A DNA stretch of 64,000 nucleotides, from the NCBI GenBank assembly GCA_026399025.1, contig JAPLRU010000118.1, positions 32,927 to 96,926 on the forward strand. The letters are read 5' to 3'. The stretch comes from Methylobacter sp. Its GTDB lineage: Bacteria; Pseudomonadota; Gammaproteobacteria; Methylococcales; Methylomonadaceae. Below, piece after piece: positions 38,466-57,477 of this stretch; positions within the stretch are counted from its first letter, which is position 1, and every line of letters begins with the position of its first letter. The translations under genes were made by a program, and so were the position numbers. Under the pieces are notes generated by a model. That model was given only the letters and a program-made list of their open reading frames with translations. It was not told the origin of the DNA and did no database searches.

Positions 38466-39410
38466 TCATTCGGCAACGACTTGCATAAACCAATTATTGG
38501 ATATTCGATCATGCAGTTCTCCCAACTTGTTTTGCAAGTCGTCGAGAATCTCCCGCAATTGCGCTTGACTGGTCTGCTGGGTATCGATGGCTTGTACGTA
38601 AGCTTGCAGTTTAGCAAGCTCTTCCGGCAAAGCATCGCTATTGGGCAAGGCATTGATACAACTGTCAATTTCAGCAATACAACAGCTGACTGAACGTGGC
38701 AAGTTGGCATTCAGCAATAAAAAGTTGAGCACATCGTCGCCGTTAACGCTGCTTCTGACATGCTGGCGATACATTAACTGGGCGTTGAGCGATTTCAATA
38801 TATTCACCCATAAAATGGTCTCATATTGGCGCATTTCATCGCTACGCGATTCAGCCAAAAGCAAAGAGGCTAAATCCAGGATCCGGCTGGTCATATCGGC
38901 GCGCTCGATATTTTTACCCAAGCGGATAAATCGGTAAGGGTTATTGTGGCTCATATAGCCCGACAACAAGCCGGTAAAGCGTTGACAGCCTTTGAGGATT
39001 TCGTTAAGCAATAACACGCGATTGCTGCGGTTGTATACCGAATCGGTATGATTAAAATTTTTGACAAACAGATACATTTCATTGACCTGCTCCCACGCTT
39101 CATCAGGCAATAAATCCCTGGACGTGCGGATGTTTTCTCTAGCCGCGCTTAATGACGAAAACAATGAGCCGGTATGACTCTTATCGATTAAAAGAAAACG
39201 GGTGATGTTGCGCTCGTTGGCAATTTTGTATTTTTCATAAAATTGCTGCTCTAAAGCATTGATGCGTACCAGCTGTAGCCAGCCCATTTCGACGCCGTTA
39301 GGCAAATCCATCAATAAATTCATATGCACACTGACCAGCCTAGCGATATTTTCAGTGCGTTCGAGATAACGTGCCAGCCAATACAGGCGTTCCGCTGAAC
39401 GGGATAACAT
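38466..39410 (-). CDS. Alpha-E (DUF403) helical protein, partner of ATP-grasp
   Basis: This 314-residue all-helical protein starts at ATG 39410 with MLSRSAERLYWLARYLERTE, the signature of the alpha-E domain (DUF403). ATG 39437 would add nine residues. The protein continues with LIDKSHTGSLFSSLSAARENIR and GYMSHNNPYRFIRLGKNIERADM (split as GYMSHNNPYRFIRLGK and NIERADM), typical of the family. Its stop lies upstream of atpI. The start overlaps the stop of the ATP-grasp gene by one base (TAATG). Alpha-E proteins are known from Aravind-type analyses of amidoligase gene clusters, where their exact role is open. Confidence 0.85.
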   Translation of the reverse strand: MLSRSAERLYWLARYLERTENIARLVSVHMNLLMDLPNGVEMGWLQLVRINALEQQFYEKYKIANERNITRFLLIDKSHTGSLFSSLSAARENIRTSRDLLPDEAWEQVNEMYLFVKNFNHTDSVYNRSNRVLLLNEILKGCQRFTGLLSGYMSHNNPYRFIRLGKNIERADMTSRILDLASLLLAESRSDEMRQYETILWVNILKSLNAQLMYRQHVRSSVNGDDVLNFLLLNANLPRSVSCCIAEIDSCINALPNSDALPEELAKLQAYVQAIDTQQTSQAQLREILDDLQNKLGELHDRISNNWFMQVVAE

Positions 39411-40861
39411 TAGTTGAGCTCCATGTTGATGATCCAAGTGTCTTTACTACCGCCGCCTTGCGAGGAATTAACCACCAGCGAGCCTTTCTTTAGCGCTACA
39501 CGGGTCAAGCCTCCGGCAGTAACAAAGGTATTTTCGCCCTGCAAAATAAACGGCCGCAGGTCGATATGCCTGGGTTCAAGCTTACCTTTACATAAAGTCG
39601 GGGCGGTCGAAATCGATAATGTCGGCTGACCGATATAATTTCGAGGATTTTGCTGGATAATTTTCCGAAATTCGGCTATTTCTTTCGTTGTTGAATGCGG
39701 CCCTACCAACATGCCGTAGCCGCCCGATTCATTGGCCGGTTTAACCACCAATTCCGGCAAATGCGCCAACACATATTCCAGATGTTCCGGATTATCACAC
39801 AGGTAAGTTTGCACATTAGGCAAAATCGGTTCTTCGTTCAGGTAATAACGGATCATTTCCGGAACGTAAGCATAAACCACTTTATCGTCGGCAACACCGG
39901 CTCCCGGCGCATTAGCCAACGACACATTACCGGCTTTCCAGGCGCGCATCAAGCCTGGAACCCCTAATGCGGAATCTTTACGGAATACTTCCGGGTCAAG
40001 AAAGTCATCGTCGATGCGCCGGTAAATAACATCGACTTTTTCCAAGCCTTCGATGGTGCGCATATAAACGCAATCATCGTCGTTGACCACCAGATCGCCG
40101 CCTTCGACCAGCTGAGCGCCCATTTGTTGAGCCAAATAAGCGTGTTCAAAATAGGCGGAGTTATAAATGCCGGGCGTTAACACCACAATTTGCGGCTTGA
40201 CAATATGCTCGGGCGCAAGCGAGGCCAGCATATCCTGCAAGCGGCTGGGGTAGTCGTCGATAGGCAGAATGTCTATATCTTGTAATAACTCGGGAAACAC
40301 CCGCTTGGTGATAACGCGGTTTTCCAGCATGTAGGAAACGCCCGAGGGAACGCGTAAATTATCTTCCAGCACATACATCACGCCGTCTTTGTCGCGGACC
40401 AAATCGGTGCCGCAAATATTGGCCCAGACATTGTGACGGGGCTTCATGCCGATACATTCTTTGCGGAAGTTTTTGGAACTATGAATAATCTCGGCAGGCA
40501 TTTTGCCTGCTTTGATGAATTCTTGCTGATCGTAAACATCCGAGATAAAGCAATTGAGAGCAGTCAAACGTTGCTTTAAGCCCTTCTCTATCATCCGCCA
40601 CTCTGTCGAACTAATAATGCGGGGAATAATGTCAAACGGCCAAGCCCGATCTATGTTGCCTTCGTCGCTGTAGACGGTAAAACTGATGCCCATTTCCAAA
40701 ATAGCCAGTTCGGCGGCGATTTTGCGCTTATCAATATCACTCTTATTGAGTGAATTTAAATATTGACACAAGCGGTAGCTGATTTGTCTAGGTTGAAACT
40801 CTGAACTCATCAGTTCATCGTAAGCGATCTCGGTGTTGTAGTTTTCCCAGATTGATTTCAT
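39410..40861 (-). CDS. Circularly permuted ATP-grasp ligase (DUF404/DUF407 type)
   Basis: This 483-residue protein has the N-terminal RLTALNCFISDVYDQQEFIK and the ATP-grasp-like core with CGTDLVRDKDGVMYVLEDNL and PSGVSYMLENR. ESGGYGMLVGPHST near residue 375 and QPTLSISTAPTL follow, and the C-terminus reads LVVNSSQGGGSKDTWIINME. Members of this family are predicted to form peptide-like amide bonds using ATP. Its start is ATG 40861. It overlaps the alpha-E gene by one base, so the two form a translation unit. A fused version with the same domains lies at 47783. Confidence 0.87.
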   Translation of the reverse strand: MKSIWENYNTEIAYDELMSSEFQPRQISYRLCQYLNSLNKSDIDKRKIAAELAILEMGISFTVYSDEGNIDRAWPFDIIPRIISSTEWRMIEKGLKQRLTALNCFISDVYDQQEFIKAGKMPAEIIHSSKNFRKECIGMKPRHNVWANICGTDLVRDKDGVMYVLEDNLRVPSGVSYMLENRVITKRVFPELLQDIDILPIDDYPSRLQDMLASLAPEHIVKPQIVVLTPGIYNSAYFEHAYLAQQMGAQLVEGGDLVVNDDDCVYMRTIEGLEKVDVIYRRIDDDFLDPEVFRKDSALGVPGLMRAWKAGNVSLANAPGAGVADDKVVYAYVPEMIRYYLNEEPILPNVQTYLCDNPEHLEYVLAHLPELVVKPANESGGYGMLVGPHSTTKEIAEFRKIIQQNPRNYIGQPTLSISTAPTLCKGKLEPRHIDLRPFILQGENTFVTAGGLTRVALKKGSLVVNSSQGGGSKDTWIINMELN

Positions 40862-41240
40862 AACATTTTACAAGGCTAGTTGGCTTTGTTAATAAAACAG
40901 CATGATTTATGCCATTTGTTGTTTGACTTAGACTGTCTATGTAATTCAATTTTTCGCCCCAAAGCCTAGCGAACCGTTCACCGACTTTATTCAGCCCGGC
41001 AAGACCTAATACGACCCTGGGTTGAGAGGCGAGACCGGCACCGGCCGGCAGAGCCGATTAAGTAAAACCGCTTTAATCACCCTATTTTGGGCCTTAGCCG
41101 CTCCAAATTGGTGCAAACTCAGAGACTAAATGACTCATTCACGTTACGCGGAAGAGTCGCGCCGATACGATGCCGATAAATTAAGTGTTTGGTATGGCAT
41201 TTGCTTTAACTTTAGGGATAAAACTTATAGAGAGCATACT
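40862..41240. other. Divergent intergenic region of the ATP-grasp cluster
   Basis: This is about 380 bases between the minus-strand ATP-grasp gene and the plus-strand VOC gene. It holds the likely divergent promoters. TTGACT at 40923-40928 is a possible -35 but has no good -10 partner. The frame at 41130-41240 is an open extension of the VOC gene and could be translated from ATG 41130, but it has no clear ribosome-binding site. Confidence 0.4.
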
Positions 41241-42497
41241 ATGCCGACCGGTAGCCATTCCTTATCTTTTCCTGTACAGGGCGACAAAGAAAACTCATCG
41301 TTCTTTACCGAATACTTGAATAAGCTGCTCGAAGAGCGTGACAGCTTAGGTTTGAGCGACATGATTCATGAAATCGACGCCATGATGCTGACCGTCGAAC
41401 CCGGAAATTCAGTTGAATATATCGAAGAGCTATGCTTAATGTCGCCTTATCATTATCTGGTCACGCTGGAAAGCGAGTCGCATTGGACCCACGTCCTGCG
41501 CATTGATATGACGGCTCCGGATCTGATTATCCGCGAAGTCAAAAATGATGACACCAAAGGTATTTTCCGCAGCCTGAACGAAGTTTTTCCGATAGGTTCA
41601 AGCAAGCCGCACAGCCGCTATATGGGGGAAATTTTGAGGGTAACTAACCGACATGACGTGGTTAAACTACAGCAACGCCGAGGCATTCTGTTTTTCTCCC
41701 AAGATGATATCGGTAAGTTGGAGTTGCCGGGCAACTTAGCGATCACCAAGCCTTCGCCTTACACCCACAATGTGGTTGCCTATTTAGAGCGAAAACCCGA
41801 AGAACCTCGCGTTTATGCATTGGGTGTCAGCAGCATTCGCAACGATGCCCGGCAAGCTTGCGAACGCGCCAAACAACGGCAACAAGCCTTAGCTATCGCC
41901 GAGCTGATTTTACCGGTGGACCATTTAGCGACCCGCATTTACAGCCAAAACAGGGAAGTGGCGATTTTAGAATGGCTGTCGTTGTCGAGTTATTACTACT
42001 GGGGCTCGTTCGATATCGTCGATCAGAATTCATCGACCAATGTCACCAAAAGCATTCATTATGCCGATGAGCTGCGCAGTCCGGCCAAAGTATTTACCGC
42101 CAATAACACCCCTTATTTTGTCAATCATTTCAAAATATTTCCTTCGCCGACTGAAAACTTTGTCCGCAATTACGGGCCCAGATTGCACCATATCGCTCTG
42201 GCGGTTAAAGACGGCAATCGGCAGGGTATAGAAAACATCGATTTTGTCGTTGACGCGATTCGAGAACAAGGCAAAAGCTTTTTGCTGGATGTGATCGGCT
42301 CCAAAGACGAAGGCTTAAAACAGATTTTTTCCAGCGCGTCCGAGCATTCGTCGTTGATTATCGAGTATGTGCAGCGCTTTGGCGGCTTTCAAGGCTTTTT
42401 TACCAAAGATAATGTCGCCGAACTAACCCATGCGGCGGGTATCGAAGAAGAATTACTGCGCATGCAAACCGAAGCGCAAAAAGCCGTTCGGGTTTAA
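41241..42497 (+). CDS. Two-domain VOC-superfamily (HPPD-like) protein in the ATP-grasp cluster
   Basis: This 418-residue protein has no close family that I know. Its later half reads like two vicinal-oxygen-chelate modules. Candidate metal residues are His228 in ILPVDHLATRI, His316 or His317 in GPRLHHIALAVKDG, and Glu375 in LIIEYVQRFGGFQGFF. The latter two stretches closely recall the C-terminal half of 4-hydroxyphenylpyruvate dioxygenase. The N-terminal half (about 1-190) looks unlike known families. ATG 41241 is preferred because of GAGAG at 41230-41234; ATG 41130 is an alternative that adds 37 residues. The position between ATP-grasp and transglutaminase genes suggests an oxidising or isomerising step in the same pathway. 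Confidence 0.6.
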   Translation: MPTGSHSLSFPVQGDKENSSFFTEYLNKLLEERDSLGLSDMIHEIDAMMLTVEPGNSVEYIEELCLMSPYHYLVTLESESHWTHVLRIDMTAPDLIIREVKNDDTKGIFRSLNEVFPIGSSKPHSRYMGEILRVTNRHDVVKLQQRRGILFFSQDDIGKLELPGNLAITKPSPYTHNVVAYLERKPEEPRVYALGVSSIRNDARQACERAKQRQQALAIAELILPVDHLATRIYSQNREVAILEWLSLSSYYYWGSFDIVDQNSSTNVTKSIHYADELRSPAKVFTANNTPYFVNHFKIFPSPTENFVRNYGPRLHHIALAVKDGNRQGIENIDFVVDAIREQGKSFLLDVIGSKDEGLKQIFSSASEHSSLIIEYVQRFGGFQGFFTKDNVAELTHAAGIEEELLRMQTEAQKAVRV

Positions 42498-42580
42498 CCC
42501 TTCACAGCAGTAGTAAAGCATACCGTTACACAGTATTTAGAATTAATTCTTACAACAACAATGAATTGGGCTCAAAAACA

Positions 42581-42627
42581 TCACCACGAAGACACCACGC
42601 GAAGTTTTATTGGTGTCTTCGTGGCGA
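42581..42627. repeat. CCACGAAG-type inverted repeat
   Basis: TCACCACGAAGACACCACGCGAAG (first part TCACCACGAAGACACC, second CACGCGAAG) at 42581-42604 pairs with GGTGTCTTCGTGGCGA at 42612-42627. It lies between the VOC gene and the transglutaminase gene and may form a hairpin in the transcript. Confidence 0.7.
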
Positions 42628-42687
42628 ATAAAACGCTTTTAATTTTGGTTCCGGCTTGTTCGGCTTAGGCAATAGGAAAAAAAAATC

Positions 42688-45600
42688 ATGACCATTCGAG
42701 TCGCTGTCCGTCACAAAACCGTCTACAGCTTTGATAGATCGGTATCCCTGTCGCCGCATGTATTCAGACTTCGCCCGGCGGTGCATAGCCGAACGCCGAT
42801 AAAAGGCTACAGCTTGCGCATTACACCTGAAAACCATTTCATCAACTGGCAGCAGGATCCGTTCGGCAACTTGCTGGCGCGGGTGGTCTTCCCGGAAAAA
42901 TGCCGAAAACTCAGCGTTGAGGTTGAAGTCATCGCGGATATGACGGTCATCAATCCCTTCGATTTCTTTGTCGAAGATTACGCGGAACACTATCCGTTTA
43001 AATACGATGCGCTATTGCTGAAAGAATTGCAGCCTTATCTGGAAATAGCCGAGCAAGGCCCGTTACTGAAGCAATGGGTCGCCGATTTCGATCTAAGCCA
43101 ACGCAATATCAACGATTTTCTGGTTGACGTTAACCGCAAAGTGTTTCAGGCGATTAGCTACAACATCCGCATGGAAGTCGGCATCCAAAGCTGCGAGGAC
43201 ACGCTAGGCAAGCTCAGCGGATCGTGCCGCGATTCGGCCTGGTTGCTGGTGCAAATATTTCGTCATTTAGGTTTGGCGGCACGCTTCGTATCCGGTTACT
43301 TGGTGCAATTGACCGCCGACGTCAAATCGCTGGACGGCCCTTCCGGGCCGGAACAGGACTTCACCGATTTGCATGCCTGGACTGAAGTTTATATTCCGGG
43401 AGCCGGTTGGATAGGGCTTGATCCGACCTCCGGCTTATTGGCCGGAGAAGGCCATATTCCTCTGGCTTGTACGCCCGACCCCGCCGGCGCCGCACCGGTC
43501 ACCGGCGGCACCGATAAGTGCGAAGTGGAATTCGAATTCAGCAATACAGTCATACGTTTACATGAAGACCCGCGCGTCACCAAGCCTTATACCGATGAGC
43601 AATGGTACCGCATTGACGCGTTGGGCCGGCAGGTCGACCGGCAATTGCTGGCTGACGATGTGCGCTTAACCATGGGCGGCGAGCCGACCTTTGTATCGAT
43701 TGACGACATGGAAGGCGCGGAGTGGAACGTTGACGCCGACGGCGCGCACAAACGCGAGCTTGCCAATGCACTGACCAAACGCTTGCGCGATCAGTTTGCA
43801 CAAGGCGCGATGCTGCATTACGGCCAAGGCAAATGGTATCCGGGCGAAGCGCTGCCGCGCTGGCAGTACGGCATTTTCTGGCGCAAAGACGGCGCACCGA
43901 TTTGGCGCAACCCCGAATTGCTGGCCGATATTAACCACGATTACGGTCATAGCGTTGAACAGGCCGAGTCATTTATCAAGCAATTGACCTTACGCTTAGG
44001 CTTACAACCGCGCTATATCAAGACCGCTTTTGAAGACAGCTTTTACTATCTCTGGCAGGAAGGTTCATTGCCGGACAATATCGATCCGTTAACAAGCAAC
44101 CTGAAAGATTCCATTGAACGCAAGACCTTGGCGCACTTGCTGGATGCGGATTTAGGCAAGCCCGCGGGCTTTACCTTGCCGATTAAATGGAACTGGACCC
44201 TGCAAAAATGGCAGAGCGGCCCCTGGGACTTTCGGCGCAAACAGATGTTTTTGATCCCCGGCAATTCGCCGATGGGCATGCGTTTGCCTTTGGGCAGCTT
44301 ACCTTGGCTGGCTCCGGACAAACGCGACAGCCAGGAAGAGCAAAGCCTGTTTGAAGCATTGCCTGAACTTGGCGATTATTACGGCGAAGTCACGCGCCGT
44401 TACAGCCATATCGAGAAAAAACTCAAGGCTCATCCCGAACTTACCGAGCAAGACGCAGGCGACGATCAAAGCGTTGAAGTCGAAGTGCCCCATACCGCCA
44501 TTTGCGTCGAAGCCCGCGAAGGCCGCGTGCATATATTCATGCCGCCGCTGACTTCACTGGAACATTATCTGGAGTTGATCGCCGCGGTTGAAGCCAGCGC
44601 GGAAAACCTGTCGATTCCGGTCGTATTGGAAGGTTATGAACCACCGCGAGACTATCGCATTGAGCGCTTGATGGTAACGCCTGACCCCGGCGTGATTGAA
44701 GTCAATATTCATCCGTCGAAAACCTGGCAAGAGTTGGTCGACAAAACCACCGTGCTTTATGAGCACGCGCGCCAAGTCAGATTGGGCACCGAAAAATTCA
44801 TGCTCGACGGCCGCCATACCGGTACCGGCGGCGGCAACCATATCACCATGGGCGCGGAAACGCCGACCGACAGCCCGTTGCTGCGCCGTCCCGATTTATT
44901 GCGCAGTTTGCTGACCTATTGGCAGCATCATCCGGGCCTGTCGTATCTGTTCTCGGGCATGTTTATCGGCCCGACCAGCCAAGCGCCGCGGGGTGACGAA
45001 GGCCGCGACGAAAAGCTGTATGAACTGGAAATCGCCTTCCAGCAAATGCCGGAAGGCGAAGTGCCGGCACCCTGGCTGGTCGATCGATTACTGCGCCATT
45101 TACTGACCGACATCACCGGCAACACGCATCGGTCCGAATTCTGCATCGATAAACTCTACTCGCCGGACAGTTCGACCGGACGTTTAGGTATTTTGGAATT
45201 ACGCGCGTTTGAAATGCCGCCTCATGCCCGAATGTCATTGGTGCAAACCTTACTATTGCGTTCGTTGATTGCCTGGTTTTGGCGGGAACCTTACAAACAC
45301 GATTTAATCCGTTGGGGCACCGAATTGCATGATCGGTTTATGCTGCCGCATTATGTCCGTGAAGATATGAAGCAAGTCGCTAAAGATTTGCAACGGGCCG
45401 GATACGGCTTTGAACTGGACTGGCTGGAACCGTTTTTCGAATTCCGCTTTCCGCGTTACGGCAACACCTTGATCGACGGCATTGACCTGGAAATGCGTTT
45501 TGCGATTGAACCTTGGCATGTATTGGGCGAAGAAGTCAGCAGCACCGGCACCGCGCGTTATGTCGACTCATCGGTGGAACGGGTGCAGATTAAAGTTACC

Positions 45601-46086
45601 GGTTTTACCGAAGGGCGTTACGTATTGACCTGTAACGGCAGACGTTTGCCGTTGCGCAACACCGGCCGCAAAGGCGAATATGTTGCAGGAGTCCGTTACC
45701 GCGCTTGGCAACCGCCGTCCGCATTGCATCCGACGATCAGTCCGCATGTGCCGCTGGTGATCGATGTGATCGATACCTGGAACGGGCATTCGGTCGGCGG
45801 CTGTACCTATCATGTCGCTCATCCGGGAGGCCGTAGTTACGACGCGTTTCCGGTGAACAGCTATGAAGCCGAAGCGCGGCGCGTCACCCGCTTTTGGGAT
45901 TTCGGCCATACGCCCGATGTTATCATGCCTGCGCCGATGATAATGCCGACGGTTACGGCCTCCGATCAACCGGGAGTCGCCACGTTTAGCGCCAACGAAA
46001 CCGCACCGAGACCGATGTCGCCGCCTATTGAAGAGCTAAATCACGAATATCCGTTTACAATGGACTTGCGGCACCGAGGCGGATAA
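42688..46086 (+). CDS. Large transglutaminase-like protein with DUF2126 domain
   Basis: This 1132-residue cytosolic-looking protein joins a transglutaminase/cysteine-protease N-terminal module (about 1-270) to a very long DUF2126 domain. The catalytic triad is Cys180 in GSCRDSAWLLV, His229 in DLHAWTEVY, and Asp245 in GLDPTSG. After that come LTMGGEPTFVSIDD, LRLGLQPRYIKTAFEDSFYY (split as LRLGLQPRYIK and TAFEDSFYY) and DGRHTGTGGGNHITMG, typical of DUF2126. No signal peptide is seen. It is a member of the ATP-grasp/alpha-E neighbourhood. A peptidase or amide-cleaving role is inferred from the triad. The DUF2126 function is unknown. Confidence 0.88.
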   Translation: MTIRVAVRHKTVYSFDRSVSLSPHVFRLRPAVHSRTPIKGYSLRITPENHFINWQQDPFGNLLARVVFPEKCRKLSVEVEVIADMTVINPFDFFVEDYAEHYPFKYDALLLKELQPYLEIAEQGPLLKQWVADFDLSQRNINDFLVDVNRKVFQAISYNIRMEVGIQSCEDTLGKLSGSCRDSAWLLVQIFRHLGLAARFVSGYLVQLTADVKSLDGPSGPEQDFTDLHAWTEVYIPGAGWIGLDPTSGLLAGEGHIPLACTPDPAGAAPVTGGTDKCEVEFEFSNTVIRLHEDPRVTKPYTDEQWYRIDALGRQVDRQLLADDVRLTMGGEPTFVSIDDMEGAEWNVDADGAHKRELANALTKRLRDQFAQGAMLHYGQGKWYPGEALPRWQYGIFWRKDGAPIWRNPELLADINHDYGHSVEQAESFIKQLTLRLGLQPRYIKTAFEDSFYYLWQEGSLPDNIDPLTSNLKDSIERKTLAHLLDADLGKPAGFTLPIKWNWTLQKWQSGPWDFRRKQMFLIPGNSPMGMRLPLGSLPWLAPDKRDSQEEQSLFEALPELGDYYGEVTRRYSHIEKKLKAHPELTEQDAGDDQSVEVEVPHTAICVEAREGRVHIFMPPLTSLEHYLELIAAVEASAENLSIPVVLEGYEPPRDYRIERLMVTPDPGVIEVNIHPSKTWQELVDKTTVLYEHARQVRLGTEKFMLDGRHTGTGGGNHITMGAETPTDSPLLRRPDLLRSLLTYWQHHPGLSYLFSGMFIGPTSQAPRGDEGRDEKLYELEIAFQQMPEGEVPAPWLVDRLLRHLLTDITGNTHRSEFCIDKLYSPDSSTGRLGILELRAFEMPPHARMSLVQTLLLRSLIAWFWREPYKHDLIRWGTELHDRFMLPHYVREDMKQVAKDLQRAGYGFELDWLEPFFEFRFPRYGNTLIDGIDLEMRFAIEPWHVLGEEVSSTGTARYVDSSVERVQIKVTGFTEGRYVLTCNGRRLPLRNTGRKGEYVAGVRYRAWQPPSALHPTISPHVPLVIDVIDTWNGHSVGGCTYHVAHPGGRSYDAFPVNSYEAEARRVTRFWDFGHTPDVIMPAPMIMPTVTASDQPGVATFSANETAPRPMSPPIEELNHEYPFTMDLRHRGG

Positions 46087-46358
46087 AGCCGAAGTGCAGC
46101 GTTAACGTAGGCACCCATTTGCGTCACTTACGAGTCGGAAGCGAAGCGCCGGCCTCGCCTAGTGACAAGCGGGAGCTTTTTAAAACGCGGCTTCTCAAGC
46201 CGGAACCTGAGAATCCGCAGATAACATGAGCGATAACAAAATCAAGTGCTGATCATGCCATCAGTCGCGTAGCACTGCGTACTCTTGAGTAGCAACGGCC
46301 TACGCGGCTAAATAAAATTAAACGATGGTTGAACCATCAGCTTAGGAGATTGATTCAA

Positions 46359-47663
46359 ATGACCGAAAAACTAAAACAACTACCTCCGGCCATATTGACG
46401 CTGGATAACAAAAATTACGAATTGCCTGCGTTGATAGGCATTGAGGGTGAAAAAGCCGTCGACATTTCCAAGTTGCGCAGTCAGAGCGGTTACGTAACCT
46501 TGGATGAAGGCTACGGTAACACCGCCAGTTGTGAAAGCGCCATTACCTATATTGACGGCGAGAAAGGCATCCTTCGTTATCGCGGTTATCCCATTGAGGA
46601 ATTGGCTGAAAGTTCGCGTTTTGTTGAAGTCGCCTATTTGCTGCTGAATGGCGAGTTACCTAACAGCCGACAATTATTGGAGTTTTCGACCAATCTTAAC
46701 GAGTCTTCGATTATTCACGAAGACATGCATCATTTTTTTAACGGCTTTCCGCGCGGCTCGCACCCGATGGGCATTTTGGCGACCATGGTCGCGTCTTTAT
46801 CCACGTTCTATCCGATTCCCGATCATCTCGATAGCGCGACGGAACAGCAAATTGTTATTAATTTAATCTCCCAAGTGCGTACTATCGCGGCTTTTTCTTA
46901 TAAGAAATCGATTGGCGAACCGTTGATTTATCCGTCTTATAAGCTTAAGTACGTGCGCAATTTTCTGAACATGATGTTCTCGTCTCCGGTGCGCGATTAC
47001 CAACTGGACGAAGATATCGTCAGGGCCATCGATATGTTCCTGATTCTGCATGCCGATCATGAGCAAAATTGCAGCACCTCTTCGGTGCGCACCGCGGGTT
47101 CCAGCATGGCGAACGTGTATGCGGTGGCTTCGGCGGGGATTTCGGCGCTTTGGGGGCCGCGTCATGGCGGCGCCAATCAGCAAGTGATACAGATGCTTGA
47201 GCAAATACATGCCGATGGCGGCGACGGCACTGAATTTATCAATCAGGCCAAAGACAAAAACTCCTCAAGCCGGTTAATGGGTTTTGGCCACCGCGTCTAT
47301 AAAAATTTCGACCCCCGTGCAATGGTATTAAAAAAACAGTGCGATAAATTATTCGATAAAGCCGGGGTTAGCGATCCTCTGTTCGATATTGCCCGAAAAC
47401 TGGAAGAAATTGCGTTAAAAGACGACTATTTCATTTCCCGCAAACTGTATCCGAACGTCGATTTCTATTCCGGACTGATTCTTCGCGCGGCAGGCATACC
47501 CACCAACATGTATACCGTATTATTCGCTATCGGCCGCATGCCCGGTTGGATGGCGCATTGGCGGGAAATGCTGCACGGCGAGCAAGTACTGATTACCCGG
47601 CCTCGGCAGATTTATGTGGGCGAGCCCTTACGTCATTATCAGGATATTGATCAACGCCCTTGA
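46359..47663 (+). CDS. gltA: Citrate synthase (type II, hexameric-type)
   Basis: It condenses acetyl-CoA and oxaloacetate to citrate, the entry to the TCA cycle. Features are the N-terminal beta-strand domain (about 1-50, seen in gram-negative NADH-sensitive enzymes), HADHEQNCSTSSVRTAGSS near residue 228 with an active-site histidine, and GFGHRVYKNFDPRA near residue 305 with another. RPRQIYVGE is at the C-terminus. ATG 46359 has TTAGGAGATT upstream. The 272 bases before it (46087-46358) hold no gene; a small palindrome, GATGGTTGAACCATC, sits at 46324-46338. It lies inside the ATP-grasp cluster, which is unusual. Confidence 0.95.
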   Translation: MTEKLKQLPPAILTLDNKNYELPALIGIEGEKAVDISKLRSQSGYVTLDEGYGNTASCESAITYIDGEKGILRYRGYPIEELAESSRFVEVAYLLLNGELPNSRQLLEFSTNLNESSIIHEDMHHFFNGFPRGSHPMGILATMVASLSTFYPIPDHLDSATEQQIVINLISQVRTIAAFSYKKSIGEPLIYPSYKLKYVRNFLNMMFSSPVRDYQLDEDIVRAIDMFLILHADHEQNCSTSSVRTAGSSMANVYAVASAGISALWGPRHGGANQQVIQMLEQIHADGGDGTEFINQAKDKNSSSRLMGFGHRVYKNFDPRAMVLKKQCDKLFDKAGVSDPLFDIARKLEEIALKDDYFISRKLYPNVDFYSGLILRAAGIPTNMYTVLFAIGRMPGWMAHWREMLHGEQVLITRPRQIYVGEPLRHYQDIDQRP

Positions 47664-47782
47664 GCGCGCCGATGAAGATGATGAACATCGGCCATTCGCG
47701 TAGGCCGCGTCTTGGGGGAACGCTTTCATACATGTTACAAGGCGCGCCCGGCGCGCCCTACGTCGGCAGTTGAGTCGTAGCC

Positions 47783-50338
47783 ATGAATAAATCGGCCAAC
47801 GATATTGGCGCGCAGTTCTACGCCACCAAACTTGGCGCTTACGATGCAATGCTTGCCAAAGACCATAAAGCGCCCCACTGGGAGCGCTTTATGGACGCTA
47901 TTGCCGCATTGGGCAGCGAACAACTGGAGCTGCGCCGCCGGGAAGCCCAGCGTCTGTTAAGGGAAAACAGCGTTACCTACAATGTGTACGGCGATACCCA
48001 ACACCCGACCCGGCCTTGGCGGCTCGACCCGGTCCCGCTGCTGATCAGTAGCGAAGAATGGCTGCTGATTGAAGCGGGCCTTAAACAGCGGGCCGAGCTG
48101 CTCGATTTAATCCTAAAAGACATCTACGGCAAACAACAACTGCTGAAAAAAGGCCTGCTGCCCAGTGAATTGATCTGGGCGCATGACGGTTTCCTGCATC
48201 CTTGCACGGGCACTTTGCGAAATCAGCAACGCCAACTGATTCTTTATTCAGCCAACCTGGCTCGCGGCCATAATGGCCGCATGTGGGTATTGGATGACCG
48301 TAGCCAAGCGCCTTCCGGCACCGGTTATGCTTTGGAAAATCGCACGGTGATGACGCAAGTGCTTCCGGGTATTTTCCGAGACATGCAAGTGCATCGGCTG
48401 TCCGGTTTTTTTAAAGCGCTGCGTAAAGGACTGATGGATTTGGCGCACCGGAAAGAAGACCCGCGCATTGTGATATTAACGCCGGGCTCGCTTAACGAAA
48501 CCTACTTTGAGCATGCCTATTTATCGTCTTACCTGGGTTTTTCCCTGGTCCAGGGCGACGACCTGACCGTGCGCGACGGCCGCGTCTGGCTGAAATCGCT
48601 GGACGGCTTGCAAGCGGTCGACGTTATTTTGCGCCGCGTCGACGATTCTTTTTGCGATCCGCTGGAATTGCGCAGCGCTTCCCGCTTGGGCGTTGCCGGC
48701 TTGCTTGAAGCCGTCCGCCGAAACAATGTCGCGATTGCCAATCCGTTGGGCAGCAGTGTTCTGGAAAATCCCGGATTGTTGGCGTTTTTGCCCCGGCTCT
48801 CGCGCTATTTTTTAAACCAGGAATTGATGCTGCCTTCGGTTGCGACTTGGTGGTGCGGTCAACGCCGGGAACGGGATTTTGTATTGCAAAATCTTGACCG
48901 CTTAGTCATTAAACCCATCAATCGGCGTTCGGAACATCATGCTCTTTTTGGCGGTCTGTTAAGCACTAAGGAAAAAGAGCTTTTACGCGCCCATATTATC
49001 GCTAAACCCCATCATTATGTCGGCCAGGAGCATGTCAGTTTTTCCACCGTACCGGCGCTGATCGAGCACCATATCGAGCCGCGATTTGCGGTGTTACGCA
49101 GCTTTGCGGTTGCCAACGACGACGGCTATCAGGTCATGCCCGGCGGTTTGACGCGGGTTGCCCGCCAGCAAGACGATTTTATTGTGTCCAATCAGGCGGG
49201 CGGCATCAGTAAAGACACCTGGGTATTGGCGGACAGGCCCGAGCGGCAGGTTAGCTTATGGTTCCAGCCCGGCCGGGATGCGGTGGTATCGGCGGTCGCC
49301 GAACCGTTGACCAGCCGTGCCGCGAATAATCTGTTTTGGGTGGGGCGTTATTTGGAGCGCATTAAAGCGTCTACCCGCTTGATCCGCACGATCTTGCTCA
49401 AGTTAGCCGAAAACAAGGAGTTTAACGATCCGCTGGGCAGCCAGTGCCTGAACGTATTATTGTGTGCGGCCACTCAAGTAACCGGCACCCATCCGGGCTT
49501 TGTCTTAGATAATGCGCCCTTATTAAAAGAGCCCCAAAATGAATTATTGGCGCTGGCTAAAAATGTCCATCGCATGGGCACACTGGCAGCCAATATTCAA
49601 GCGTTTGCCCAAACGGCCTTCAGTATTCGCGACGTCTGGTCCCAAGATACCTGGCGTTGCGTCGACAATATTCAACGGCGCTGGCAACAGCGGGTAGTCC
49701 ATAGTCATTGCGATTTGGAACAACTGCAAAAACACCTGGACGATTTAATCACCGGCTTTGTCGCCTTTATCGGCTTAACCACCGAAAGCATGACGCGTGA
49801 AGCCGGTTGGCTGATGTTGGATGGCGGTCGGCGTTTAGAACATGCGCAAGCCTTGATCGCTTTGCTGCGCGCCACCGTGGTGCCGCGTCATGAAATGGCC
49901 TTACAAAACCAGCTGCTGGAAGCGGTCCTGGTGTCCACCGACAGTTTAAGCATTTACCGCCGCCGCTATCGTTCCTTTATCCAGTTGCCGATGGTGCTGG
50001 AATTGTTACTGATGGATGAAACCCACCCGCGCTCATTGGCTTATCAGTTACATCAATTGTCCATCCATATCGGCGCATTGCCGCGAGAGCGGGGCAAAGG
50101 CCAGTTGAGCGAAGAAGAATGCCTGATTCTCAGAGCCTACACCGACTTACGCTTGGTCAAAGTGTCCGAACTGGTTAAAGCCGATGACGAGGCGGGCATT
50201 TACAGCGAGCTGGAAAAGGTTCTATCGGCGATGGCCGAACGCTTATGGCAACTCTATGAAGTACTGGCGCAAGCCTATTTTAGCCACTCCCAAGTGCAAA
50301 AATTGATGACGCCGATTCAACCGGAGGATGAACTGTGA
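47783..50338 (+). CDS. Fused circularly permuted ATP-grasp and alpha-E (DUF404/407-DUF403) protein
   Basis: This 851-residue protein joins in one chain the two proteins encoded separately at 38466-40861. Residues 1 to about 490 are the ATP-grasp part, with LKDIYGKQQLLKKGLLPSEL, GRMWVLDDRSQAPSGTGYAL and GGLTRVARQQDDFIVSNQAGG (split as GGLTRVARQQDD and FIVSNQAGG). From about residue 510 to the end is the alpha-E part, starting RAANNLFWVGRYLERI. The stop overlaps the next gene's start by four bases (GTGA). The fused architecture supports a physical complex of the split pair too. Its ligase target is unknown. Confidence 0.9.
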   Translation: MNKSANDIGAQFYATKLGAYDAMLAKDHKAPHWERFMDAIAALGSEQLELRRREAQRLLRENSVTYNVYGDTQHPTRPWRLDPVPLLISSEEWLLIEAGLKQRAELLDLILKDIYGKQQLLKKGLLPSELIWAHDGFLHPCTGTLRNQQRQLILYSANLARGHNGRMWVLDDRSQAPSGTGYALENRTVMTQVLPGIFRDMQVHRLSGFFKALRKGLMDLAHRKEDPRIVILTPGSLNETYFEHAYLSSYLGFSLVQGDDLTVRDGRVWLKSLDGLQAVDVILRRVDDSFCDPLELRSASRLGVAGLLEAVRRNNVAIANPLGSSVLENPGLLAFLPRLSRYFLNQELMLPSVATWWCGQRRERDFVLQNLDRLVIKPINRRSEHHALFGGLLSTKEKELLRAHIIAKPHHYVGQEHVSFSTVPALIEHHIEPRFAVLRSFAVANDDGYQVMPGGLTRVARQQDDFIVSNQAGGISKDTWVLADRPERQVSLWFQPGRDAVVSAVAEPLTSRAANNLFWVGRYLERIKASTRLIRTILLKLAENKEFNDPLGSQCLNVLLCAATQVTGTHPGFVLDNAPLLKEPQNELLALAKNVHRMGTLAANIQAFAQTAFSIRDVWSQDTWRCVDNIQRRWQQRVVHSHCDLEQLQKHLDDLITGFVAFIGLTTESMTREAGWLMLDGGRRLEHAQALIALLRATVVPRHEMALQNQLLEAVLVSTDSLSIYRRRYRSFIQLPMVLELLLMDETHPRSLAYQLHQLSIHIGALPRERGKGQLSEEECLILRAYTDLRLVKVSELVKADDEAGIYSELEKVLSAMAERLWQLYEVLAQAYFSHSQVQKLMTPIQPEDEL

Positions 50339-51276
50339 AATACCGCATCACCCATAGCACTCTCTACCAATACAGCCAACTGGTCGGTTTATGCCAGAAT
50401 GAAGCGCGCTTGCAACCCCGCGATTTCTGGCGTCAACAATGTCAAAACAGCCGCTTCGATATTAGCCCCGACCCTAGCGACTTCCAGGAACGCAAGGATT
50501 TTTTCGGCAATCGCGTGGCTTATTTCGCCATACAGCAAGCGCATCAACGCTTAATGGTGACCGCAGTGAGCGAAGTCACGTTATTTCCGAAGCAAAGCCG
50601 TGACGACCTGACAAATTTAACCGCTTGGGAGCACGTGCGAGATCAATTGCAGGAAGGTCCCGGACAAACACAAGCGCAAACGCAAACCCTGCACGGGCAG
50701 AGCCAGTCTCAGCAGCAAGGCCAAGATAATGAAATGCTGGACGCCAAACTATTTTTGCTGGATTCGCCGATGGTGATTACCAGTGCCGAACTGGCTGATT
50801 ACGCGCAAAGCTCATTTTTGCCGAATCGGCCTTTGGTGCATGTGGTCACCGATTTAATGCAACGGATTCATAGCGATTTTATCTATGATCCGAGCAGTAC
50901 CACCATTGCGACACCGTTATCCGACGTACTTCGTTTTCGCCGCGGCGTGTGCCAAGATTTTGCCCATCTGGCGATTGCTTGTTTACGTTCGTTCGGTATT
51001 GCGGCGCGTTATGTCAGCGGTTATGTCGAGACGCAGCCCGAGCCCGGTCGACAACGTTTAGTCGGAGCGGATGCGTCTCATGCCTGGTTTTCGGTTTATG
51101 TGCCGGGTAGCGGCTGGCTGGATTTCGACCCGACCAATAATAAATTACCGTTCGATCAGCATATTACCTTGGCTTGGGGGCGGGATTATACCGATGTCAC
51201 ACCGCTCAAAGGCATTGCTTTCGGCGGCGGTCAACATACCTTGTCGGTGTCGGTGGATGTGCTTAGGTTGGAATAG
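50335..51276 (+). CDS. Transglutaminase-like (bact_transglu_N) cysteine protease homologue
   Basis: This 313-residue protein with a GTG start overlaps the preceding gene. The N-terminal beta-domain (1 to about 95) precedes a glutamine-rich linker near residues 102-133. The transglutaminase core follows, with Cys206 in RRGVCQDFAHLA, His249 in DASHAWFSVY, and Asp265 in WLDFDPTNN. The spacing of His to Asp (16) is the same as in the large protein at 42688. It completes a full set with ATP-grasp and alpha-E, and it probably works on the same product. Confidence 0.88.
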   Translation: MKYRITHSTLYQYSQLVGLCQNEARLQPRDFWRQQCQNSRFDISPDPSDFQERKDFFGNRVAYFAIQQAHQRLMVTAVSEVTLFPKQSRDDLTNLTAWEHVRDQLQEGPGQTQAQTQTLHGQSQSQQQGQDNEMLDAKLFLLDSPMVITSAELADYAQSSFLPNRPLVHVVTDLMQRIHSDFIYDPSSTTIATPLSDVLRFRRGVCQDFAHLAIACLRSFGIAARYVSGYVETQPEPGRQRLVGADASHAWFSVYVPGSGWLDFDPTNNKLPFDQHITLAWGRDYTDVTPLKGIAFGGGQHTLSVSVDVLRLE

Positions 51277-51337: not shown

Positions 51338-52588
51338 TTAACGCAAGGCTTTCTCCCAACGGCTTACCAGCGCGGCGGCGATGCTGTTACCGAACACATT
51401 GGTTGCGCTACGGCCCATGTCCAGCACCTGATCGACGGCCAGCAGCAACAGTAAACCGGCTTCGGGAATGTCAAACATCGACAAGGTGGCCGAAATGACG
51501 ATTAACGACGCTCTGGGCACACCGGCCACGCCTTTGCTGGTAAACAGCAACACCAGCAACATGATCAATTGATCGCCCAAAGCCATGTCGATGCCGTAAG
51601 CCTGGGCGATAAACAGCACCGCGAAGGTCATGTACATCATGCTGCCGTCTAAATTAAACGAATAACCCAGCGGCAGCACCAACCCGCAGATTTTCTCATC
51701 GCAGCCGAAGCGTTCCAGTTGTTGCAACAGTTTCGGGTAGGCGCTCTCGCTGCTGGCGGTGCCGAAAGCCAGCAACATTGGTTCGCGAATGTGGCGAAAC
51801 AACGATAAGATCCGCCGCCCCAGAATCAAAAAACCGGCGCAACCGAGCGCGCAACACAGCAACACCAGCCCTAAATAAAACTCCCCGATAAAGCGGCCGT
51901 AAGACAGCAGCACGCCAAGACCGTTTTGCGCGATCACCGAGGCGACCGCCGAAAACACCGCGACCGGGGCGGTATGCATAATGTAGCCGGTGACTTTCAG
52001 CATGATATGGGTCAACGAATCGAGCAATTTGACGGTCGGATGGGCCAATTCGCCCAGCGAGGCGCAAGCGACGCCGAAAAACATCGAAAATATCACGATC
52101 TGTAAAATCTCGTTAGCGGCCATGGCTTCGATGATGCTTTTCGGAAACATGTGCGCGATAAAATTATTCAGCGTCGGCGTCGCTTGCGGCAATCCGGTCT
52201 TGGCGCCGATCTCGGGCAAGGCCATATGCAAAGAACTGCCCGGCTCAAAACCGTTCACCAGCAACATGCCCAGCAGCAAACTGAATAGCGATGCCGAGAA
52301 AAACCACAGCATCGCTTTGATGCCGACGCGTCCGACGGTCTGAATATCGCCCATCTTAGCCATGCCCACCACCAGCGTGGAAAACACCAACGGCGCGATG
52401 ATCATCTTGACCAGGCGCAGAAAAATATCGGTCAGCGCGGAAAAAATATTGATGCCCTGTTTTAACGCCGGGCCGGCTTCGGCGCCGCCCAATGTCAGGT
52501 TAAGCAATTCGCCGACGATAATGCCGAGCACCAGCGCGATAGCGACATAAAGAGTTTGGCGGTTGGGTTTCGAGGTATGAGCGGTCAT
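51338..52588 (-). CDS. Dicarboxylate/amino acid:cation symporter (SDF family, DctA/GltP-like)
   Basis: This 416-residue inner-membrane symporter of the SDF (DAACS) family has eight hydrophobic spans plus two re-entrant hairpins. Visible segments are FLRLVKMIIAPLVFSTLVVG near residue 56, GTASSESAYPKLLQQLERFG near residue 276 (substrate hairpin, with the serine-rich motif reading TASSES), GYSFNLDGSMMYM near residue 307, and DQVLDMGRSATNVFGNSIAA near residue 386. The substrate could be C4-dicarboxylate or glutamate/aspartate, and sequence alone does not separate these. The stop is convergent with the transglutaminase gene. Confidence 0.9.
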   Translation of the reverse strand: MTAHTSKPNRQTLYVAIALVLGIIVGELLNLTLGGAEAGPALKQGINIFSALTDIFLRLVKMIIAPLVFSTLVVGMAKMGDIQTVGRVGIKAMLWFFSASLFSLLLGMLLVNGFEPGSSLHMALPEIGAKTGLPQATPTLNNFIAHMFPKSIIEAMAANEILQIVIFSMFFGVACASLGELAHPTVKLLDSLTHIMLKVTGYIMHTAPVAVFSAVASVIAQNGLGVLLSYGRFIGEFYLGLVLLCCALGCAGFLILGRRILSLFRHIREPMLLAFGTASSESAYPKLLQQLERFGCDEKICGLVLPLGYSFNLDGSMMYMTFAVLFIAQAYGIDMALGDQLIMLLVLLFTSKGVAGVPRASLIVISATLSMFDIPEAGLLLLLAVDQVLDMGRSATNVFGNSIAAALVSRWEKALR

Positions 52589-52677
52589 ATAAGAGCCTTA
52601 TTAAACTGGAAATTTTGGCTCTTAACGGATTCCGGGAGATATACAAATATAGACCACGCAGTTGGTAAAACGATAAA

Positions 52678-52782
52678 AAGCCCTCTCCAGAGGGAGAGGG
52701 TTGGGTGAGGGGAAATTAAAATAAGGAAAAAAGCTTATTTAAATCCCCTCATCCCAGCCTTCTCCCTGAGGGAGAAGGAGCC
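52678..52782. mobile_element. Gene-less copy of the DUF559-unit inverted repeat (105 bp)
   Basis: Bases 52678-52715 are identical over 38 positions to the left repeat arm at 21525-21562. About 25 AT-rich bases follow, and then a diverged inverted partner (52741-52782, with CCTTCTCCCTGAGGGAGAAGG). There is no ORF between the arms. It sits between the SDF symporter and the DUF2171 gene. The 570-base gap 52589-53158 otherwise holds no gene. Two similar GGTTAAAATTT words at about 52956 and 53107 are noted but not interpreted. Confidence 0.85.
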
Positions 52783-53158
52783 AATGTCGTGTTACTAACG
52801 GCGGGCTCTATATTTGCACTCCTTCCCGGATAGAGCGGGCGTTTACAATACCTCAGCCGGCGGATAATACAAAATGCTTTGAAGTTATTATTGCCCGGTG
52901 TTGGCTTTGCCGGTTGAGGCCGATTATGGCTCGGCTATGCAAACATCGTGCAACGGTTAAAATTTCGCAAGCGCAAACGCGTTTCTATGTATGAAGTCGC
53001 ACAGACCGATTTTAATTATCCGTGTAAATTCAAATTACAGACAGCGGTTTTATCAGGTCGCTCAACATACCAAAACGGCTGTGATTTCAAACCGCGTCTG
53101 CATACCGGTTAAAATTTTCCAATAAAATCGGCTCAATTTGAGTGAACAGGAGAAGACG

Positions 53159-53401
53159 ATGATTAATACCGAACAAATTAAACCCGAGATGCCCGTGGTT
53201 TGCTCTCAAGGCGGCCAGTTTGCAACGGTCGACCATATGGAGGGGGCGGATGCGATCAAGCTGAAGAAAGATAAAAAGGGACAGCATCATTACATTCCGA
53301 TGAGTTGGGTAAGCTCAACCGAAGGCGGTCAAATTAAAGTGGATCGTCCGGGGGATCAAGCCATGCAGGAATGGTCGACCGTTCCTCCTTCGCTGCATTA
53401 A
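53159..53401 (+). CDS. DUF2171 family small protein
   Basis: The 80-residue protein has MPVVCSQGGQFATVDHMEGA near residue 11, then IKLKKDKKGQHHYIPMSWV, and a short acidic tail. It is a DUF2171 protein, a PRC-barrel-like fold that often occurs as a short stress-related gene. ATG 53159 has AGGAG at 53148-53152. An earlier ATG at 53138 lacks such a site. Function is not known to me. Confidence 0.75.
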   Translation: MINTEQIKPEMPVVCSQGGQFATVDHMEGADAIKLKKDKKGQHHYIPMSWVSSTEGGQIKVDRPGDQAMQEWSTVPPSLH

Positions 53402-53411
53402 ATGCAATAAC

Positions 53412-53436
53412 GCCGGGCATGTCGTTCATGCCCGGC
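53412..53436. terminator. Hairpin after the DUF2171 gene
   Basis: GCCGGGCATG pairs perfectly with CATGCCCGGC around TCGTT. There is no T-run directly after it, so it is a weak terminator candidate or an RNA 3' stabiliser. Confidence 0.5.
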
Positions 53437-53506
53437 ATGTTGCGGACTGAATATCAAAACAGCTAACTAAACCTTGGTTTTTTCAGCATCGCTTAAAGCA
53501 ATAAAC

Positions 53507-54859
53507 CTATGTCTCTTCTTGCAGATAGACTTTTTCTTGGTAATTCCGGCTATGCCAAACAAATCCCAAGGCTGTCGCCAACATCAAGGCGGCGAAAAAC
53601 CAAAAATAACCGGCTCCGGCCAGACGGCTGGAACCGTCCGGGTTCTGAATGAAAAAATTCACCGCGCTGGTAAACAAATTGCCCAGTGCAACTGCGCCCA
53701 TATACAGCGACATCACCAAGGATTTCATCGTTTTAGGCGCTTGGGTATAAGAAAACTCCAAGCAGGTGATCGACACCATGACTTCGGCGGAAGTCAATAA
53801 TAAGTAAGCCAATAACTGCCAGCCGATTCCGGGCTGAAAACCGGCATCGATGCGCACCTGAATACCGGCAACCAGCACAAACGACAAAACGGTAATAAAC
53901 AAACCGATAGCGATTTTATTCAGGTAGCCCAAGTGCAAATGCCTAGCCAATGCCGGATACAGGAATTTGTAAAACAAGGGCGTCAGCAGAACGATCAGCA
54001 AGGGATTGGCGGCTTGAATCTGCGAAGGCAATATCTCGATACCGAATAGATGCCTGTCCATTTGTTGCGCTTGCAACACCCAGGACGAGCCGTTTTGATC
54101 GAACAAGGCCCAAAACATCGCAATAAACACATAAATGCCGCTTAATCTCCCCAAGCAACGCAAACCTTCGCCGCTCAAAGCTTCGCGCACGAAACCCATG
54201 CCGGTCGGAGGAATATGCACAAAACGGTAGCGCCCGGACCAAAATATTGCGCTCGCCAACAGCATCAATACGCCCGGCACGGCAAAGGCGACCGAAGCAC
54301 CGTAAGTTTTGAGCAGCCAAGGCACCAGCAACATAGAAACAAAAGCGCCAAGGTTAACCGATAGATAAAACCAACTGAATACCTTACTGAGCCAATGCCG
54401 ATTACCGACGCCAAACTGATCGCCGAGATGAGCGGATACGCACGGCTTAATGCCGCCCGCGCCAAGAGCGATCAAGGCTTGCCCGACTAATAAACCGGTT
54501 CGCGTATCGTCCAGCGCCAAGCAAAAATGGCCTAAGCAATAAACCATCGATAACAAAATGATGGTCCGGTATTTACCCAATAAGCCGTCGGCCAGCAATG
54601 CGCCTAAAAAGGGGGTGAAATAGGTAATCGAAACGAATAAATGAAAATACGCCTGAGCCTCGCCGGCCGCCATCGGCGCGAATTTGCCCTCGGCATCCAT
54701 CAAGTATTGCGTCATGAATACCACCAAAACGGCCCGCATCCCGTAATAACTAAAGCGTTCCGCGAGTTCGTTAGCGATGATAAACGGAATGCCGCCGGGT
54801 ATGTCAGTGGAAGGAACGGGAGCGGTACGATAGGACGTTTTCATAAAATGAGGCTTCAT
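53507..54859 (-). CDS. POT-family proton-dependent oligopeptide transporter
   Basis: This 450-residue MFS protein has about 12 membrane spans. The POT marker, IPFIIANELAERFSYYGMRA, has the EXXERFxYY motif near residue 35. It is followed by FHLFVSITYFTPFLGALLAD and GALGxGGIKP-like IALGAGGIKPCVSAHLGDQF near residue 133. FSWFYLSVNLGAF near residue 161 is the family's second signature. Di- and tripeptides are the usual substrates, taken up with protons. ATG 54859 follows a CCGGAATCT site; ATG 54844 is an alternative. The convergent hairpin at 53412 sits beyond its stop. Confidence 0.9.
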   Translation of the reverse strand: MKPHFMKTSYRTAPVPSTDIPGGIPFIIANELAERFSYYGMRAVLVVFMTQYLMDAEGKFAPMAAGEAQAYFHLFVSITYFTPFLGALLADGLLGKYRTIILLSMVYCLGHFCLALDDTRTGLLVGQALIALGAGGIKPCVSAHLGDQFGVGNRHWLSKVFSWFYLSVNLGAFVSMLLVPWLLKTYGASVAFAVPGVLMLLASAIFWSGRYRFVHIPPTGMGFVREALSGEGLRCLGRLSGIYVFIAMFWALFDQNGSSWVLQAQQMDRHLFGIEILPSQIQAANPLLIVLLTPLFYKFLYPALARHLHLGYLNKIAIGLFITVLSFVLVAGIQVRIDAGFQPGIGWQLLAYLLLTSAEVMVSITCLEFSYTQAPKTMKSLVMSLYMGAVALGNLFTSAVNFFIQNPDGSSRLAGAGYFWFFAALMLATALGFVWHSRNYQEKVYLQEET

Positions 54860-54984
54860 AGATTCCGGTTCCAGTGCAACGTAGCCAACCGCCAAGCACA
54901 GCAAGTGGCGGCTGGGATGTTGATCTACTGTAACCGCATGAATCAAATGATTCAACAGGAAGCATCAAGGTAACGTGAAGTGTG

Positions 54985-57364: not shown

Positions 57365-57477
57365 TTGTTTCCCCAATCTTGACCGCAGTTGTGAATTAAG
57401 CGGCATGCGCCGTTTATTCCGATGACCGTATCCTAGTCCTTTAACCTTTCAAAAACCTTTCGCAACTTCCTGAGTCT

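Follow-up and report, generated by a model that had tools for sequence, protein, structure and literature searches.

A Methylobacter form of the Anbu-associated ATP-grasp/alpha-E/transglutaminase gene system with a linked HPPD-like protein and a probably non-catalytic fused ligase

A 64,000-nucleotide stretch of Methylobacter sp. DNA (the window), located on contig C132 of a 5.2-Mb genome, carries a block of seven genes. These encode a separate ("split") pair of a circularly permuted ATP-grasp protein and an alpha-E protein, an HPPD-like protein, a large transglutaminase-like protein with a DUF2126 domain, a citrate synthase, a fused ATP-grasp-alpha-E protein and a small transglutaminase-like protein. 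Together the genes represent the Methylobacter version of the known ATP-grasp/alpha-E/transglutaminase/Anbu system. We propose that it makes and breaks an amide under nitrogen limitation and has gained a 2-oxo-acid dioxygenase, a reading in which we infer the chemistry and the control and to which, as a whole, we give a probability of roughly 0.55.

The Anbu operon, in passages of PMC6376114 and PMC5666114, consists of ATP-grasp, alpha-E, transglutaminase-like and Anbu genes; its function is described there as unproven, with tagging or peptide synthesis proposed. The first three kinds of gene stand together in the block, as judged from Pfam matches and catalytic triads, and Anbu is encoded at 6404-7156 of contig C136 in the same genome. 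This Anbu shares 95% identity with a Methylobacter tundripaludum protein and has Thr1, Asp17 and Lys32 (numbering after the first Met), which part of PMC6376114 gives as the candidate catalytic residues. A reading of the window made from the letters and open reading frames alone (the sequence-only reading) had singled out the locus as a candidate for an undescribed pathway; as a gene set this was not borne out, since the system has already been discussed in print and Anbu occurs in the same genome. Among 151 genomes searched, the present one included, 83 encode alpha-E, 69 encode DUF2126 and 39 have the HPPD-like gene. Anbu occurs in 82, all of them among the 83 alpha-E-positive genomes and none among the 68 alpha-E-negative ones.

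Anbu is not encoded in the same operon here: no copy was found in the 64-kb window, and the genome's own copy is on C136, a contig of 7.5 kb. Methylobacter tundripaludum SV96 (L077) has these seven genes too and, 100 bases after them, a gene for a 251-amino-acid Anbu that adjoins the small transglutaminase gene, and a close relative of this protein (L089) matches solved Anbu structures. Because Anbu directly follows the small transglutaminase gene in that species, a rearrangement probably separated the two in the present genome. A PF00227 search of the genome gave a single match, in a 188-amino-acid frame that is probably HslV; the genome's own Anbu was found with an Anbu protein lacking any Pfam match as query. 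On C136 (L166, 520-7156), Anbu neighbours cas1, cas2, a reverse transcriptase gene, a Cas_NE0113 gene and a CRISPR array. A further candidate component is a CbiA/MinD-like protein of ca. 237 amino acids (e.g. L113:11288-12001), whose gene recurs at 10 of 80 loci in the neighbourhood of HPPD-like, transglutaminase and Anbu genes; its CbiA match scored 22.9 bits, below the Pfam cut-off of 25.4.

The HPPD-like protein is predicted, on the basis of a structural model, to be an Fe(II) dioxygenase of the HPPD-like vicinal oxygen chelate superfamily. It matched no Pfam family above the cut-off and no NCBIfam family, phmmer gave no matches to PDB sequences, and its profile gave one hit there with E 1.7. 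A first AlphaFold model (pLDDT 65.8) already matched HPPD; a second, built from a wider alignment, reached a pLDDT of 79.5 and a pTM of 0.83, with residues 111-120, 291-315 and 400-410 below 50. When the second model was compared with the PDB using Foldseek, all of the 50 matches listed were HPPD or hydroxymandelate synthase chains, the best with E 3.2e-14, a query TM of 0.56, a target TM of 0.69 and ca. 15% identity. The hhalign comparison with HPPD gave E 0.0013 at a probability of only 18%; in it and in a joint alignment with 14 HPPDs, DHLATR, LHHIAL and IIEYVQR aligned with DHLTHN, IQHIAL and FFEIIQR, respectively. H228, H317 and E375 (numbered from position 41241), invariant across 45 HPPD-like sequences, occupy the HPPD positions that we take to be iron ligands. 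The protein therefore has the fold and the three ligand positions in common with HPPD and hydroxymandelate synthase, in agreement with the HPPD-like call of the sequence-only reading. It differs from HPPD in that His316 precedes the second His ligand, where the 14 aligned HPPDs have an invariant Gln. Since the genome has no TIGR01263 match at E ≤ 0.001, the protein is not recognised as the tyrosine-pathway HPPD (EC 1.13.11.27). Translation probably starts at 41241 and not at 41130, the start of the longest open reading frame, because many relatives begin at, or a few residues past, that Met; against this start, the open frames of some relatives are also longer.

The HPPD-like enzyme tracks the Anbu-type system. 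Relatives were taken from the best 80 of the 430 genome_contigs stretches that encode one (L077-L156), and the nearest named ones are from Methylobacter species. Carriers, by title, include the methylotrophs Methylobacter, Methylovulum, Methylobacillus and Methylophilus, as well as Mariprofundus, Sideroxydans, Thioalkalivibrio and many Gammaproteobacteria; several of the carrier genera are iron or sulfur oxidisers. The gene was found in 7 of 398 members of an even sample of the phylum, the present genome included. At 60 of the 80 loci, a core gene lay in the fetched flank, in several different gene orders. Among the 151 genomes, 38 of the 39 carriers had alpha-E and Anbu (Fisher p 2e-11 and 1e-11, kinship ignored), and the exception, G148, has merely pieces of the HPPD-like gene. 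That the gene is an unrelated passenger on a shared nitrogen-controlled promoter region, as the other 20 loci and its position apart from core genes in L048-L052, L055, L058, L061, L063 and L070 might suggest, is in our view improbable: carriers in which it stands apart still hold alpha-E and Anbu, and the linked copies in Gamma-, Beta- and Zetaproteobacteria have core genes beside them in varied orders.

The split and fused copies were compared in alignments that each included the window's own protein. E166, N168, R170, D434 and N465 were kept in all 62 split ATP-grasp sequences, whereas their equivalents were found in none of the 47 fused ones, 44 of which have Arg in place of N168. The split S379-G383 loop was kept in 62/62; of its residues, G380, Y382 and G383 remained in 1, 1 and 3 of the 47 fused proteins, and G381 in 23. 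Out of nine such residues, each split protein keeps all and each fused protein at most one. In ATP-grasp enzymes the metal is usually bound by an E-x-N pair, and we take E166 and N168 to be Mg ligands, assigning the roles of this pair and of the loop from general knowledge of ATP-grasp enzymes together with conservation. With residue roles so assigned, the E-x-N pair, the glycine loop and the C-terminal Asp are present in 62/62 split proteins, while the fused proteins lack the pair in 47/47, have a broken loop and have lost the Asp. Equivalent losses were seen in the fused proteins of Azospirillum, Shinella, Caballeronia and Granulicella, and the split proteins of Paenibacillus and Acidithiobacillus retain the residues. 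The two groups of stretches used (L037-L076 and L077-L156) share some genomes, e.g. L039 and L077, and the aligned sequences are not all independent; 39 of the 47 fused and 54 of the 62 split sequences are distinct. With the named set (L077-L156) and the window's own proteins, N168 was kept in 39/39 split versus 0/35 fused sequences. The alpha-E parts diverge similarly: R23, E26, R27, R100, E101, N102, R104 and E178 were kept in 58-59 of 59 split proteins, and in the fused half N30, R100, E101 and N102 occurred in 0/47 and R104 in 5/47, compared with 58-59 of 59 in the split form.

Because five residues invariant in the 62 split sequences are kept in none of the 47 fused ones, the fused protein is probably non-catalytic, a pseudo-ligase that would serve the DUF2126 module, and the split ATP-grasp is predicted to be an active ligase. 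Of the 151 genomes, 50 carry the fused gene; all 50 also have DUF2126 and Anbu, and 47 have the split set, the remaining three genomes being 70-77% complete. The fused gene is missing from 33 of the 83 genomes with alpha-E. We consider it rather unlikely that the fused ATP-grasp is instead an active enzyme with changed chemistry, using another metal site or nucleotide. Several residues are indeed fixed or nearly so in the fused clade (R170 to Q and S467 to Q in 47/47, P413 to E in 45/47), and R281, R282, R436 and K473 are retained in all 47, but the loss of the E-x-N pair, the broken glycine loop and the loss of R100-E101-N102 throughout the alpha-E half argue against such an enzyme, as does the loss of K374 and K473 in the Shinella and Caballeronia fused proteins.

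The citrate synthase, which the sequence-only reading did not mention, lies between the DUF2126 and fused genes here and in several other genera. It is one of two in the genome, the copies being 52% identical. This position would suit a dedicated pathway enzyme supplying citrate as an acyl part, but a close relative is the sole citrate synthase found in G034 and G082 (99% complete), relatives also occur in G005, G050 and G073, all without alpha-E, and the clusters of L046, L047 and L075 lack the gene, so that a dedicated role appears very doubtful. It is taken as an ordinary enzyme embedded in the block, its placement perhaps reflecting shared nitrogen-carbon control. In L064 and L065, a different citrate synthase gene (44-47% identity) adjoins the HPPD-like gene.

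Sigma54-type and NtrC-like elements hint, by their sequence, at nitrogen-starvation control of the block. Between the divergent split ATP-grasp and HPPD-like genes lie an NtrC-like palindrome at 41099-41115 and a sigma54-type element at 41190; the latter is the sole match in the window to the strict pattern TGGYAYN5TTGC and precedes the probable ATG at 41241 by 51 nucleotides. A mismatch-tolerant sigma54 pattern occurred across the window at chance level (35 found, 39.9 expected), so weight is placed on the strict pattern and on the comparison across relatives alone. In the L077-L156 stretches, genes with at least 200 bases upstream were counted, other genes being those of at least 200 amino acids; sigma54 sites were sought within 350 bases, and HPPD-like starts were trimmed by rule to the Met ahead of a conserved GD. 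Strict sigma54-type sites were found upstream of 18/78 HPPD-like genes and 11/39 split ATP-grasp genes versus 6/516 other genes, and upstream of 0/36 alpha-E, 0/47 DUF2126, 0/10 citrate synthase, 0/35 fused and 1/47 small transglutaminase genes. NtrC-like palindromes with at most 2 mismatches preceded 21/78 HPPD-like and 17/39 split ATP-grasp genes (a single palindrome may count twice where these two diverge) versus 16/516 other genes; the counts were 3/36 for alpha-E, 2/47 for DUF2126, 0/10 for citrate synthase, 1/35 for fused and 2/47 for small transglutaminase genes. In Pseudomonas putida, PP_2685-PP_2688 encode Anbu, a transglutaminase, an unnamed protein and a circularly permuted ATP-grasp protein; passages of PMC8050072, PMC7801951 and PMC3325844 report that these genes respond to nitrate or nitrogen limitation, and part of PMC7801951 calls them likely NtrB/NtrC-controlled.

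The closest known system is the Anbu operon of P. putida (PP_2685-PP_2688) and Yersinia bercovieri, with which the Methylobacter genome has in common the split ATP-grasp, alpha-E and transglutaminase-like kinds of protein and Anbu itself; a nitrogen response is known for the P. putida operon. The present system differs in having Anbu on another contig and extra genes for DUF2126, fused ATP-grasp-alpha-E, HPPD-like and citrate synthase proteins. A Caballeronia sp. Sq4a plasmid has a similar order, with annotated genes for a large transglutaminase, an ATP-grasp of fused length and a small transglutaminase coming after a split pair; a zinc metallopeptidase gene lies inside the locus. The DUF2126/fused/transglutaminase locus of Granulicella tundricola also shares the core genes in similar order. 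No HPPD-like or citrate synthase gene was matched in the stretches of these two loci that were read. Residues 14-478 of the split ATP-grasp can be aligned (E 8e-157) with 3N6X, a circularly permuted ATP-grasp structure recorded as a putative glutathionylspermidine synthase. E. coli Gss gave no significant alignment with profile A3, at an hhalign probability of 0.2% with a thin profile of 14 sequences, and the ATP-site residues could not be mapped onto this enzyme. RimK/RimB and Rlo systems, from partial accounts of them, likewise combine an ATP-grasp protein with a peptidase, and Rlo also has an inactive transglutaminase; they differ in their aspartic peptidases, membrane-bound transglutaminase domain and RimK-like ATP-grasp.

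Based on these observations, the system is hypothesised to work as described below. Nitrogen limitation would turn on the block beginning with the HPPD-like gene, most likely via NtrC and sigma54. Working with its alpha-E partner, the split ATP-grasp would use ATP to activate a carboxylate and join it to an amine, and DUF2126 may carry out a second amidoligase step. The fused protein, its catalytic residues lost, could regulate the DUF2126/transglutaminase module or act as its scaffold. Amide bonds would be cut or exchanged by the transglutaminase-like cysteine proteins and by Anbu, whose gene lies elsewhere in the genome, and the HPPD-like Fe(II) enzyme would oxidise a 2-oxo-acid from which the amide-linked compound is built or into which it is broken down. 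An amide-forming ligase-plus-peptidase system, as envisaged in the sequence-only reading, is consistent with the evidence. Only tentatively do we go further, to a nitrogen-starvation pathway for an amide-linked small molecule built from a 2-oxo-acid-derived block oxidised by the HPPD-like enzyme, with the duplicated, dead fused copy as a platform for the active pair, a role known from pseudoenzymes, and with Anbu and the cysteine hydrolases recovering nitrogen.

Several points speak against the proposed make-and-break system. Degenerate residues do not prove loss of function, and both halves of the fused protein retain others: R23, R27, R107 and E178 of the alpha-E half in 47/47 and, besides the four invariant basic residues of the ATP-grasp half, K374 in 44. 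No core gene lay in the fetched flank of 20 of the 80 HPPD-like loci, a group that includes short contigs, L119 (no HPPD-like frame called) and L111 and L156 (Anbu nearby), and 3 of the 39 HPPD-like carriers, G148 included, lack DUF2126. The strict sigma54 match precedes a minority of the HPPD-like and split ATP-grasp genes, and these related sequences are not independent. According to part of PMC7801951, a P. putida rpoN mutant still induced PP_2686-PP_2688 (14.16-, 16.02- and 19.61-fold versus 12.61-, 11.04- and 14.66-fold in the wild type), an argument against sigma54 dependence in that species, and PP_2685 (Anbu) was nearly unchanged in the wild type (1.12-fold). Given these P. putida data, we have more confidence in the nitrogen link than in the sigma54 step. 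It is further reported, in passages of PMC6376114 and PMC5666114, that Anbu proteins cut none of the peptides tested and that the Yersinia ATP-grasp protein released phosphate with no stimulation by glutamine or glutamate.

The absence of Anbu activity on those peptides also bears on protein tagging, in which proteins would receive a peptide or amino acid from the ligases, and the tags would be removed, or the proteins degraded, by Anbu and the transglutaminase-like peptidases. Tagging is the hypothesis stated in part of PMC6376114, and peptide synthesis with Anbu as peptidase is stated in part of PMC5666114; Anbu is, moreover, a proteasome relative. We regard tagging as unlikely, as no tag protein or unfoldase was recognised among the block genes with Pfam, and a co-varying HPPD-like small-molecule enzyme suits a metabolite better than a protein tag.

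The features of the block are listed in Table 1. The split pair on the minus strand, and the fused protein with the small and very large transglutaminase-like proteins on the plus strand, were confirmed by Pfam as the sequence-only reading had placed them. Its triads proved exact in position, with each residue kept in at least 95% of the aligned sequences, both for C206/H249/D265 of the small protein (n = 56) and for C180/H229/D245 of the large one (n = 63). The DUF2126 (PF09899) match is above the cut-off and full length (positions 1-826, 1360 bits). The split ATP-grasp frame overlaps the alpha-E frame (39410-39437), and the small transglutaminase gene shares its first 4 bases with the end of the fused gene. 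The genome has two alpha-E matches, both inside the block, and one DUF2126 match. Two sets in one locus is a real layout, as claimed earlier, but not a unique one: among the 47 genomes with both sets, the distance between them is at most 15 kb in 24 and larger, on a single contig, in 6, and in 17 the sets lie on different contigs. Frequent separation of the genes had been named as a mark against a pathway; the two sets are together in 24 of these 47 genomes, and a core gene is near most HPPD-like loci (60/80). Inactive proteins had been named as another such mark; the fused ATP-grasp has lost residues invariant in the split enzyme, and the split ligase and both triads have kept theirs.

Table 1. 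Features of the block and its control region (window positions)
Feature	Position	Strand	Basis
Split alpha-E protein (PF04168)	38466-39437	-	Pfam Alpha-E, 275 bits, 1.5e-81
Split circularly permuted ATP-grasp, predicted active ligase	39410-40861	-	CP_ATPgrasp_2, 560 bits, 3e-168; PDB 3n6x 8e-157
NtrC-like palindrome CGCTCCAAATTGGTGCA	41099-41115		2 mismatches to TGCACC-N5-GGTGCA
Sigma54-type -24/-12 element TGGTATGGCATTTGC	41190-41204	+	Matches TGGYAYN5TTGC
HPPD-like (vicinal oxygen chelate) protein, predicted Fe(II) dioxygenase	41241-42497	+	Fold, Fe-ligand positions, gene linkage
Transglutaminase-like domain and DUF2126 putative amidoligase	42688-46086	+	Bact_transglu_N, Transglut_core, DUF2126 1360 bits
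Type I citrate synthase	46329-47663	+	Pfam/NCBIfam
Fused ATP-grasp-alpha-E, predicted non-catalytic copy	47783-50338	+	CP_ATPgrasp_2 503 bits, Alpha-E 218 bits
Small transglutaminase-like protein	50335-51276	+	Bact_transglu_N, Transglut_core

After the block, genes for an SDF dicarboxylate/amino-acid symporter and a POT-type peptide transporter lie on the minus strand (51338-54955). Among the 40 relative stretches L037-L076, most of which end ca. 3 kb beyond the block, an SDF match was seen only in L064 (36%) and a POT match in none. Elsewhere in the window of this methanotroph relative are a DabA-type inorganic carbon transporter gene and, nearby, a Mrp-antiporter-like gene (18225-21566 and 25239-26843), and a carbonic anhydrase gene (56642-57406).

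As far as checked, three features are new: an HPPD-like enzyme linked to the system, a fused ligase that is degenerate, and sigma54/NtrC-like elements at the locus; Iyer et al. (2009) may already note the fused copies or the HPPD-like gene. Literature searches for DUF2126 and for Anbu with dioxygenase and ATP-grasp found no mention, and dioxygenase, glyoxalase and citrate synthase are not mentioned in the parts consulted of the Anbu papers PMC6376114 and PMC5666114. Since the fused ligase is probably dead, searches for the substrate should use the split ligase. The HPPD-like dioxygenase travelling with the system points to a small oxidisable acid, and the nitrogen-control-like DNA elements, together with the P. 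putida expression data, indicate a condition in which the product may be sought.

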